Positions 10,056 through 27,410 of a DNA stretch of 44,686 nucleotides are shown here, one piece after another; position 1 is the first letter of the stretch, and each line of letters opens with the position of its first letter. The DNA comes from Actinomycetota bacterium (GTDB taxonomy: Bacteria > Actinomycetota > JAICYB01). Position numbers and translations under genes: made by a program. The notes below the pieces were generated by a model. The model did not search any database. It was not told the DNA's origin and saw only the letters and a program-made list of their open reading frames with translations. The DNA lies in NCBI GenBank assembly GCA_035536535.1, contig DATLNZ010000038.1, positions 1 to 44,686 of the forward strand. Reading direction: 5' to 3'.

Positions 10056-10104
10056 CCTGCTGGATGAGTATTCCGCGCGGCCCACATGATGAACGGGGAC
10101 GCAC

Positions 10105-10647
10105 TTGCTGACCGCGGGTGACCTGGCCCCCGACGTGACCCTGTACTCCGGCGACGGCAGTCTGCTGCGCACGCCCGACCTGTGGCGCGACACGCCCGTG
10201 GTGCTGAACTTCCTGCGCCACTTCGGCTGAATCCACTGCAAAGACCAGCTGGCGCAGTTGCGTCAGGAACATCCCAGGTTCGTCGAGGCCGGCGCCCGCG
10301 TGTACGGGATCTTCATGGGGTCGCCGGACTCGGTGCGGCAGTTCTGCGAGGAACGCGCAGTGCCGTTCGAGTGTCTGGCCGACCCGGACCGTTCCGCCTA
10401 CCGCGCCTTTGCCCTCACCTCAGGGGGGGCGCGGAAGCTGCTCAACCCGAACACCGTCATCAAGGGCGTGAAGCTTTACGCCAAGGGCATGACCACGGGC
10501 CTGCCCCACGCCGGCCAGGACATACGTCAGATGCCTGGAACCTTCGTTGTCTCGCCGGGCGGACGCATCCGCTTCGCCCACTACAACTCCGACGCAGCTG
10601 ACAACGCCCCGATCCGCAACATCCTCGGCGCCCTCGGCGCGTCGTGA
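10105..10647 (+). CDS. Peroxiredoxin-like selenoprotein (TGA = Sec42)
   Basis: The product is a thioredoxin-fold antioxidant protein of the AhpC/TSA-like PF13911 (PRXL2) kind. The frame begins at TTG 10105 after two in-frame stops. It reads GDLAPDVTLYSGDG, then VVLNFLRHFG, TGA at 10228-10230, IHCKDQLAQLR, and continues without a break to 10647. Both sides of the TGA match one family: the family motif is RxxGCxxC, so TGA replaces the first, peroxidatic-type Cys and leaves U42-x-x-C45. A 7-bp hairpin with loop AGTT follows 25 bases later. With Sec the protein has 180 residues, normal length. Eukaryotic SelU of the same family also uses UxxC. Ordinary gene callers would give only a truncated piece from about 10258. 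No sel genes are in the window. Confidence 0.85.
10249..10266 (+). promoter_or_regulatory. Putative bacterial SECIS hairpin
   Basis: CTGGCGC pairs with GCGTCAG (seven pairs, one G-U) around the four-base loop AGTT. The loop starts 26 bases after the TGA, inside the range of about 16-37 bases known for bacterial SECIS elements. It carries G then U in its second and third positions, as does the GGUC loop of E. coli fdhF that SelB recognises. The hairpin lies within the coding sequence, as bacterial SECIS elements do. Confidence 0.7.
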
Positions 10648-24343: not shown

Positions 24344-25639
24344 ATCGCCGATTGGACCAACTGGTCGGGAACCGCGGCGTGCGCGCCGGCGCGGGTCGAG
24401 CGGCCCGCATCAGAGGCGGCGGTGGTGGAAGCAATCCTGCGCGCACGGGCCGAGGGACAGCCGGTGAAGGTGCGGGGGACCGGTCATTCGTTCACCGACG
24501 CTGCGTGCACAGACGGCGTGATGATCTCGCTGGACCGCTGCGACGGGATCGTCTCGGTGGACCCGGGGGGCGGCACGGTGACGGTCCAGGCAGGGATCAC
24601 GCTGCGCGCCCTCAACGGTTTTCTGGCCCGTCACGCGCTGGCGATGTCCAACCTGGGAGACATCGCCTACCAATCGGTGGCCGGGGCCACGCAGACGGCC
24701 ACCCATGGAACCGGTCTGCGCTTCGGGAACCTGTCCACGCAGATCCGGCGGGTGCGGCTGGTGGACGGCTGCGGGACGATCCACGAACTGTCCGCGGACC
24801 ACGACCCGGAAGCGTTCCAGGCTGCAAGAGCCGGGCTCGGCGCCCTCGGCGTCGTGACGGAGGTGACGATCGACGTGGAGCCGGCGTTCGACCTTCTGGC
24901 GGTGGAGGAGCCAAGGGACCTCGACGACCTTCTGCCCCGGCTGGACGAACTCGCGGAGGCCGAGGAGCACTTCGAGTTCTACTGGCTGCCGCACACGCCA
25001 CGGACGCTGACCAAGCGCAACGTGCGGACGAGGGAGCCGAGATCCACGCGCTCGGTCTGGAAGTCATTCCGCAACGAGGTCCTGCTCGCCAATGCGGCCA
25101 TAGGCGCGCTCTGCCGAATCGGGCGCGCCCGGCCATCGCTGATCCCGGCGCTCAACGCCCGGTTCGCCGCGGAGTTCGGGCGGACGCGTGTCATCGATCG
25201 CAGCGACCGCGTGTTCACCAGCCCGCGGTACCTGCGGTTCGCGGAGATGGAGTACGCCATACCGCGCGCCGCCGCGACTGAGGCGCTTCAGAGGCTGCGG
25301 CGGATGATCGACGAGACGGGGCTGAGGGTCAGCCTGCCGGTGGAAGTCCGGTTCGTGGCGGCGGACGACATCTTCCTCAGTCCCTCGTACGAACGGCAGA
25401 CCTGCTACATCGCCGTCCACATGTACCGGGGCACCGACTACAGGCCGTATTTCTCGCAGGTGGAGCGGATCATGCTGCCGCTCGGAGGACGCCCGCACTG
25501 GGGCAAGCTGCATGGTCTGCGGGCCGACGTCCTGTCCGGGCTGTACCCGGCGTGGGACCGCTTTTTGGCCGTCCGCGACCGGCTCGACCCGGACCGGACG
25601 TTCGCCAACGCCTACCTGGACCGCGTGCTGGGCCCTTAG
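24344..25639 (+). CDS. FAD-linked aldonolactone-type oxidase (ATC start)
   Basis: A 431-residue VAO-family flavoprotein of the L-gulonolactone/D-arabinonolactone oxidase and alditol oxidase kind. It has the FAD domain with GTGHSF (His48, the usual site of covalent FAD), VAGATQTATHGTG and GLGALGVVT, the ALO C-terminal domain and HWGKLHGL near the end. The first canonical start, GTG 24422, would cut off DWTNWSGTAACAPARVERP, which belongs to the conserved N-terminus. Reading from ATC 24344, just after a strong ribosome site, restores it. The sugar substrate is unknown. Its stop overlaps that of the convergent thioredoxin-like gene. Confidence 0.87.
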   Translation: MADWTNWSGTAACAPARVERPASEAAVVEAILRARAEGQPVKVRGTGHSFTDAACTDGVMISLDRCDGIVSVDPGGGTVTVQAGITLRALNGFLARHALAMSNLGDIAYQSVAGATQTATHGTGLRFGNLSTQIRRVRLVDGCGTIHELSADHDPEAFQAARAGLGALGVVTEVTIDVEPAFDLLAVEEPRDLDDLLPRLDELAEAEEHFEFYWLPHTPRTLTKRNVRTREPRSTRSVWKSFRNEVLLANAAIGALCRIGRARPSLIPALNARFAAEFGRTRVIDRSDRVFTSPRYLRFAEMEYAIPRAAATEALQRLRRMIDETGLRVSLPVEVRFVAADDIFLSPSYERQTCYIAVHMYRGTDYRPYFSQVERIMLPLGGRPHWGKLHGLRADVLSGLYPAWDRFLAVRDRLDPDRTFANAYLDRVLGP

Positions 25640-26238
25640 CCCGGACCGGCGGGCAGGTGCGGCTCGATCTCGCGGCGGTATTCGTCCTTGGGACGCCCGG
25701 CCCCCGAAACGCGCGCAACCTCGTGGCCCTTTGAGAACAGGATCAGCGTGGGGATGCTGCGGACGTTGTAGCGCTGCGCGACTTCCTGATGGTCGTCGAT
25801 GTTCAGCTTGGCCACCCGCATGCGCCCGGCGAGGTCGTCGGAGAGTTCCTTGAGGACGGGGGCCAGCATGTGGCACGGCTGGCACCACTCGGCCCAGAAG
25901 TCCACCAGGACGGGGACGTCGTCCGCGGCCACGTAGGCGTCGAAGGTGTCCGAGCCCAGGGCCGCGAATCCCGCCGTCGCCGCCTTGGCCCGCTCCAGCG
26001 GGCCCTGGTCCTCTTCGACCACCTCGCTGTGGTCCTCGGCGTAGGCGGCGAATGCCTCCTGGGCCTCCTGGGAGCCCTTCATCGTCTCCATGATCGCCTG
26101 CACGAGGTTCTTCTTGAGCTGCTCTTCGTCCGCGGCCGACACCGTCACCTGCAGCGGGCGGAAGGTCGCCGTCCAACTGCCGTCCTCCAGCTGCCGCCGG
26201 TCCGTGCCGGGCTCGATGTCCACCATCCGCTTGCTCAT
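25636..26238 (-). CDS. Thioredoxin-domain protein with N-terminal extension
   Basis: A 200-residue protein. About 90 N-terminal residues are acidic and helical with no recognised family. The rest is a thioredoxin fold with active site WCQPC (Trp118, Cys119, Cys122) instead of the usual WCGPC, followed by VAKLNIDDHQEVAQRYNVRSIPTLILF with the cis-Pro. No signal peptide, so it probably works in the cytoplasm. ATG 26238 overlaps the stop of the DUF2342 gene (ATGA), tying its expression to that metalloprotein. Gln at this position may change redox potential; that is inference. Confidence 0.87.
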   Translation of the reverse strand: MSKRMVDIEPGTDRRQLEDGSWTATFRPLQVTVSAADEEQLKKNLVQAIMETMKGSQEAQEAFAAYAEDHSEVVEEDQGPLERAKAATAGFAALGSDTFDAYVAADDVPVLVDFWAEWCQPCHMLAPVLKELSDDLAGRMRVAKLNIDDHQEVAQRYNVRSIPTLILFSKGHEVARVSGAGRPKDEYRREIEPHLPAGPG

Positions 26239-27410
26239 AAACCAGCCTCCGACATCCGCTCGATCCACCCGTCGGGGTTGTCTATCTCCGATGCAGTCGG
26301 AAGCGAATCGGGGTTGTCCCAGGCTTTGTTGAGGAAGGCCACGTCGTGTACGCCGGCGACGTAGCGGCAGAACTTCACACCCGCGTCGTACTGCTTTCGC
26401 TTCAGCTCCAGCCCAAGCAGCCGCTCTAGCAGCTGCTCGCCCGGAGACGAGGTCCTTTTGCGCCGCTCCATCACCTCCTTCAGGCGAGCGTGGTCCTTGA
26501 GCACGGCCGCGCCGACCGCGTCCATCACGAAGGTCGCGTAGCCCTCGACCAGCGTCATGAACGCCTGCAGCCTGCTCATCGTGTCGAGGCCGAGCGGTGT
26601 CCATGCCGCCTGGATCAGGGCTTCCGGGTCCTGCAGGGTCTCCGCCATCTTCTCGGGGTTGGTGATGTCGAACCCCTCGAGCGTCTCCTGCAGCCGCGCA
26701 GGGTCGAAGTCCAGCGAGTCGATCATCGTCTGGATCTGCGAGTGGAAGTAGCGCCGCGTCCACGGCCGGCTGAACTCCAGGTGGTGGGTGACCTCGTGCA
26801 GCGCGATCCAGTACCTGAACTCCCGGGGGTCGAGCTCCCAGTCCTGCTCGGCCTGCTGCATGTTCGGGATCACGTACAGCAGTCGGCCGCCGGACGGGTC
26901 CGGCAGGACCAGCTCGTACTGACCGATCACGTGACGGGACAGGTACCCGAGGACGAACCCGGTCTGAAGGCCCATGAGGACCCCACCGATCTGGCGCAGC
27001 ACCATCGCGGCGGACTCCGGGATCGGTACGGGGATCCCGCCGGTCAGAGCGGGACCGGTCAGCTTGGCGGCCAGCGGTTCCATGAGCATCTTGAACACCG
27101 CGACGTTCTCCTCGACCCACTGGCCTCTCGTCACGCCGATGACGGGGGCCACGGTGCCGGGGACCAGTCCGGTGAACTGCTCGCACTGCACCTGCGCCGC
27201 CCGCGACATCGTTTCAAGCTCCCGGCGGCAGTCCTCGAAGTCCTCCGAGGGCGGCTCGTCGTGGGAGCCGAGTGAATAGGCGACCTGCCGGGCGAGGTCC
27301 CAGTTAACGGGGTCGGTTGAGGACAGCAGCTTGAACAGCTCCCTCAAAACCGGTACCTGCTCCCACCAGTCCTGTGGCGGCTTCGGGATGTCCGCGCGAT
27401 GCTCGTTCAT
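26235..27410 (-). CDS. DUF2342 zincin-like metalloprotease
   Basis: This 391-residue protein belongs to the actinobacterial DUF2342 zinc-dependent metalloprotease family (mycobacterial Rv3195 type). The zinc motif HExxH is intact at 205-209 (ALHEVTHHLEF), and a family glutamate lies in LVEGYATFVMDAVG downstream. ATG 27410 is selected; the frame runs on upstream without family sequence. It leads a two-gene unit with the thioredoxin-like protein. A peptide substrate has not been established for the family. Confidence 0.87.
   Translation of the reverse strand: MNEHRADIPKPPQDWWEQVPVLRELFKLLSSTDPVNWDLARQVAYSLGSHDEPPSEDFEDCRRELETMSRAAQVQCEQFTGLVPGTVAPVIGVTRGQWVEENVAVFKMLMEPLAAKLTGPALTGGIPVPIPESAAMVLRQIGGVLMGLQTGFVLGYLSRHVIGQYELVLPDPSGGRLLYVIPNMQQAEQDWELDPREFRYWIALHEVTHHLEFSRPWTRRYFHSQIQTMIDSLDFDPARLQETLEGFDITNPEKMAETLQDPEALIQAAWTPLGLDTMSRLQAFMTLVEGYATFVMDAVGAAVLKDHARLKEVMERRKRTSSPGEQLLERLLGLELKRKQYDAGVKFCRYVAGVHDVAFLNKAWDNPDSLPTASEIDNPDGWIERMSEAGL

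Follow-up and report, generated by a model that had tools for sequence, protein, structure and literature searches.

The question raised by this locus is whether a TGA codon that interrupts a conserved reading frame ends the protein or is read as an amino acid. The frame lies in a 44,686-nt stretch of DNA that was analysed as a whole (hereafter the window), and the first-pass annotation had proposed that the TGA hides a peroxiredoxin-like selenoprotein. Sec machinery, comparative TGA evidence, a SECIS hairpin and purifying selection strongly support this proposal, and we consider it very probable, judging from sequence, that the UGA is decoded as selenocysteine (Sec) in a 180-residue SelL-related thiol/selenol oxidoreductase of the peroxiredoxin fold (Table 1). 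Translation of the frame, which has GGGGA at about positions 10095–10099 just 5' of its start codon, gives 41 residues, the TGA, 138 further residues and a TGA stop. As the first-pass annotation had stated, AhpC/TSA-like sequence runs in one frame on both sides of the internal TGA, which sits at the first Cys of the family motif RxxGCxxC and leaves U-x-x-C (R-H-F-G-U-I-H-C in the window gene). With Cys placed at codon 42, the protein scored 75 bits against Pfam AhpC-TSA, 73.2 bits against AhpC-TSA_2 (PF13911; cut-off 27) and, over residues 8–176, 140.2 bits against NCBIfam NF040769 'SelL-related redox protein' (cut-off 120), a model that all 24 aligned relatives also match. Annotation by standard rules leaves only a truncated ORF, as had been anticipated, and misses the predicted catalytic residue.

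Table 1. Coordinates of the features of the predicted selenoprotein gene in the window.
Feature	Position	Strand	Details
Predicted selenoprotein gene	10105–10647	+	180 codons, TTG start at 10105 to TGA stop at 10645–10647; AhpC/TSA fold, SelL-related redox protein
In-frame TGA, putative Sec42, first residue of U-x-x-C	10228–10230	+	37 genes read carry TGA in this alignment column; the syntenic G001 orthologue has TGC
TGC for Cys45, putative partner of Sec42 in UxxC	10237–10239	+	Matches the peroxidatic Cys in alignments with true peroxiredoxins; invariant in alignment A3
Remnant ORF of 129 aa under table 11	10258–10647	+	Standard translation
Predicted bacterial SECIS hairpin	10249–10266	+	7-bp stem 10249–10255/10260–10266, apical loop AGUU 10256–10259

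A good match to the protein was present in 43 of the 397 genomes of the phylum (48 matches), and 38 matches, distributed over 34 genomes, carried one TGA. The codon was read in 37 of these 38, the window's gene included, and the TGA stood at the same column in every one. A search of the genome contigs with the window protein as a single sequence returned no relatives; an alignment-based search found them, with a pattern that required Cys; the loci so obtained are necessarily Cys forms and uninformative on the frequency of Sec. Homologues with Cys aligned at residue 42, which the first-pass annotation had suggested looking for, do exist, and the gene thus shows the arrangement by which selenoproteins are recognised, namely a UGA inside a conserved frame that aligns with Cys in homologues. 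The actinobacterial placement of the host was confirmed through genomes of the same phylum (G297, G267 and G192).

The most informative Cys form comes from a genome of the same family as the window genome (G001), which has TGC at codon 42. Its gene is split over two contig ends, both syntenic with the window (an ABC transporter and the upstream ORF on one side; an ArsA-like ATPase and an acyl-CoA dehydrogenase on the other). Comparison of the window gene with this orthologue gave a pN/pS of 0.33 before and 0.42 after codon 42 and a dN/dS of ~0.22 ahead of the TGA and ~0.26 beyond it, indicating purifying selection on both flanks, the part after the TGA included. Taken together with the same-column TGA in 37 genes of the phylum, these dN/dS values place the codon-42 TGA in a conserved frame beyond chance. 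They also bear on the idea that the gene is a pseudogene with a premature stop, to which the in-frame TGA and the TTG start might point: the dN/dS after the TGA speaks against it, as do the lack of a second stop or frameshift, a conserved SECIS and an end branch on the protein tree of 0.12 for the window gene vs 0.35 for the Cys orthologue, and we regard a pseudogene as exceedingly improbable.

Decoding as Sec calls on dedicated machinery, and selA, selB, selC and selD, which the first-pass annotation had proposed as a check, are all present in the host genome (G000; 2.62 Mb, 205 contigs, completeness estimate 100%). SelA scored 417.9 bits; tRNA-Sec scored 79.5 bits (gathering score 47) and has the anticodon TCA according to ARAGORN; SelB is a 666-aa ORF whose C-terminal wing-3 domain scored 75 bits; and SelD, equivocal in an AIRS_C search, scored 379.7 bits with the SelD model and contains one in-frame TGA. 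Because the selA and selB contigs (C89 and C149) have 98%-identical stretches in common beside the two genes, selA and selB are probably neighbours in this genome. A binning error is possible in an assembly of 205 contigs; the composition agrees, with a tetranucleotide correlation with the window of 0.957–0.990 for the contigs carrying selA, selB, selC and selD vs 0.862–0.948 for other genomes of the phylum. Across the phylum, SelA was found in 30 of the 34 genomes with a TGA-bearing match vs 201 of the 363 others (Fisher p 1e-4), and every one of the 4 Sec-type genomes in which no SelA was found is a multi-contig assembly.

UGA is known to have been reassigned in other bacteria, and a change of code or programmed read-through could insert some amino acid other than Sec at codon 42. 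However, TGA also terminates the window gene itself, those conserved genes of the host genome in which in-frame TGAs were seen carry them at redox Cys positions or at the Sec position of SelD, and tRNA-Sec, SelA, SelB and SelD are present, so that we attach hardly any weight to this explanation and keep to Sec.

The selD gene is itself of the Sec type (contig C157:3490-4413; L056), its in-frame TGA being the U of U-x-x-K. A second peroxiredoxin-type Sec gene of the same genome (contig C128:10647-11009; L183) is PrxQ/Bcp-like, with the TGA at the cysteine of TPGC (TPGU), and is followed 16 nt after the UGA by an AGUU loop, identical to that of the window gene, on a 6-bp stem. A search of the genome for molybdopterin oxidoreductases (e.g., formate dehydrogenase) gave one partial match, without TGA. 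Together with the window gene, these genes suggest that this actinobacterial lineage has a functional selenocysteine system and no fewer than three selenoprotein genes.

We then considered the RNA signal. The window gene can form the hairpin CUGGCGC-AGUU-GCGUCAG, whose stem begins 18 nt and whose loop lies 25 nt after the UGA; it agrees with the bSECIS constraints quoted in PMC13188914 in its stem (7 bp), loop (AGUU) and spacing (25 nt), and the 36-nt stretch that contains it folds at -11.3 kcal/mol. The whole 59 nt after the UGA folded no better than shuffles; it was the local hairpin and its covariation that proved informative. Upon synonymous codon resampling, a 7-bp stem arose at the hairpin site in 5.9% of draws, and one with an AGUU loop in 0.5%, for which reason the evidence for a SECIS from the single gene is moderate and the weight lies on the comparison of genes. 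In a gap-free alignment (48 nt) of Sec genes of the clade, the AGUU loop and its spacing were invariant (20/20), 5 of the 7 stem pairs had compensatory changes on both sides, and 95% of cells pair. The covariation score was reached by none of 500 shuffles and dropped sharply when the partner was slid by 1–3 columns. A leave-one-out covariance model, trained on the 19 remaining genes and scanned over both strands of the 44.7 kb window, ranked the hairpin (10244–10268) first with 26.8 bits vs 16.1 bits for the next hit. In addition, 22 of 23 Sec genes use TTG for the Leu whose codon straddles loop and stem, as do 2 of the 12 distinct Cys genes in the phylum; of all Leu codons in the window, 6% are TTG.

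This hairpin weighs heavily on another explanation, that the TGA is a sequencing or assembly error and the true codon TGC, as in an ordinary Cys-form SelL-related enzyme. The nearest orthologue, that of G001, indeed has TGC, and within the 24 bases surrounding the motif it departs from the window gene at a single position. However, the window gene has, through synonymous differences from this Cys orthologue, the hairpin and the rare TTG codon exactly at the site where they are seen in Sec genes of other families, and the Cys orthologue is without the hairpin. A single TGC-to-TGA base error would leave the matching hairpin unexplained, and TGA fills the codon-42 column in many other genomes. 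We therefore consider an error very improbable, and selenocysteine the better reading of the codon.

Two Cys genes (L067:2113-2137 and L059:2128-2152, the latter from an Armatimonadota MAG) keep a near-SECIS hairpin, possibly a relic of a Sec ancestor and of recent Sec loss; a hairpin alone is hence no proof of Sec. In Sec genes of a sister clade (L165-L167, L170-L177, L179 and L182), which have the motif U-L-I/F-C and LVKV/LVKM, a conserved hairpin carries a CGUGA loop 20 nt after the UGA, and this suggests two SECIS classes within one phylum.

Next, we examined the predicted structure. The AlphaFold2 model of the window protein (pLDDT 95.3, pTM 0.91) had its cleanest solved match in the human prostamide/PGF synthase PRXL2B (1.9 Å rmsd), whose C44/C47 correspond to U42/C45; by sequence, too, PRXL2B is the nearest solved relative (profile E 8.5e-21). 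The label 'SelU-like' given in the first-pass annotation is therefore apt as a resemblance, the curated family into which the protein scores being NF040769. Against the PxxxTxxC motif of true peroxiredoxins, Sec42 falls on Thr, Cys45 on the peroxidatic Cys and Arg38 on Pro. Alternatively, the selenoprotein might be a genuine peroxiredoxin in function, in which Cys45 is peroxidatic and Sec42 resolves it, which would suit its fold, its match to Pfam AhpC-TSA and the alignment of Cys45; however, the PxxxT part is absent, and in CxxC-type enzymes of the peroxiredoxin fold the nucleophile is usually the first residue, making such a role unlikely.

We favour instead an oxidoreductase with Sec42 as the attacking residue. 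SelB with Sec-tRNA(UCA) would bind the AGUU-capped hairpin, and Sec would be delivered at the UGA in competition with the release factor. Placed where a long helix begins, like the first motif residue of CxxC oxidoreductases, Sec42 would most likely attack as the nucleophile, Cys45 would resolve it as a selenenylsulfide, and a thioredoxin-type reductant would recycle the latter. From the family we infer this catalytic cycle and the substrate class (peroxide or disulfide). Elsewhere in the window, a long minus-strand frame (25636–27186) contains, in its C-terminal part, a thioredoxin domain, a possible redox partner.

A tree of 52 proteins built with the U/C column masked implies at least 8 to 9 changes of the Sec/Cys state. 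The family may include a Sec form spread across this actinobacterial phylum and not treated as a separate family in current selenoproteome reviews. Its AGUU SECIS would be lineage-specific and near-invariant, with a fixed spacing, a second class with a CGUGA loop would mark the sister clade, and Sec and Cys would have been exchanged at least 8 times; we put this broader view forward tentatively, with more doubt than confidence. Orthologues at the same place that differ in Sec vs Cys and in the presence of the SECIS amount to a natural experiment in which the benefit of Sec is directly testable. Other TGA-bearing genes were also noticed: one genome (G025, contig C130:56119-57200) has an adjoining tandem pair of Sec-type paralogues of the family (L017 and L046), and in three AhpC/TSA proteins of the phylum that are more remote (L024 in G056, L033 in G044 and L022 in G045) TGA occupies the first position of the motif (W-U-P-H-C, W-U-P-Y-C), so that they possibly represent further Sec families.

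Finally, we compared the window protein with known families. It scores over the cut-off of NF040769 and differs in being a Sec form with UxxC. With SelL proper it has in common the class of Prx-like proteins and the NCBIfam naming; SelL carries two Sec residues two positions apart (UxxU; PMC3316567), whereas residues 42–45 of the window protein are U-I-H-C, the second motif residue being Cys instead of Sec. Eukaryotic SelU/PRXL2 (FAM213), including PRXL2B, is alike in its AhpC-TSA_2 match, in (U/C)xxC at the same place and in fold, but shares ~22% identity, bears another NCBIfam label and, in SelU, has a eukaryotic SECIS in the 3'UTR, whereas that of the window gene is bacterial and lies beside the UGA. 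Sec-containing peroxiredoxins (TxxU), of which the PrxQ-like TPGU protein of the same genome is one, have the fold in common but carry Sec at another motif position, and the window protein departs from PxxxTxxC with R38 for Pro and U42 for Thr. NF040769 is unnamed in the 2026 review (PMC13188914), and a literature search for NF040769 gave no match. Alike by description, the basis of this comparison, are the bacterial Prx-like UxxC selenoproteins, which likewise have a Prx-related domain, UxxC instead of TxxU and a bacterial SECIS in the coding region: those of the Sargasso Sea, 2005 (PMC1088965), GOS Prx-like 1 and 3, 2008 (PMC2398784), and the Prx-like thiol:disulfide oxidoreductase (PF00578) tabled in the 2026 review (PMC13188914). 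Neither the recoding of UGA nor the enzyme family is new: Sec-containing Prx-like UxxC proteins of bacteria have been on record since 2005, and the window gene is an added member.
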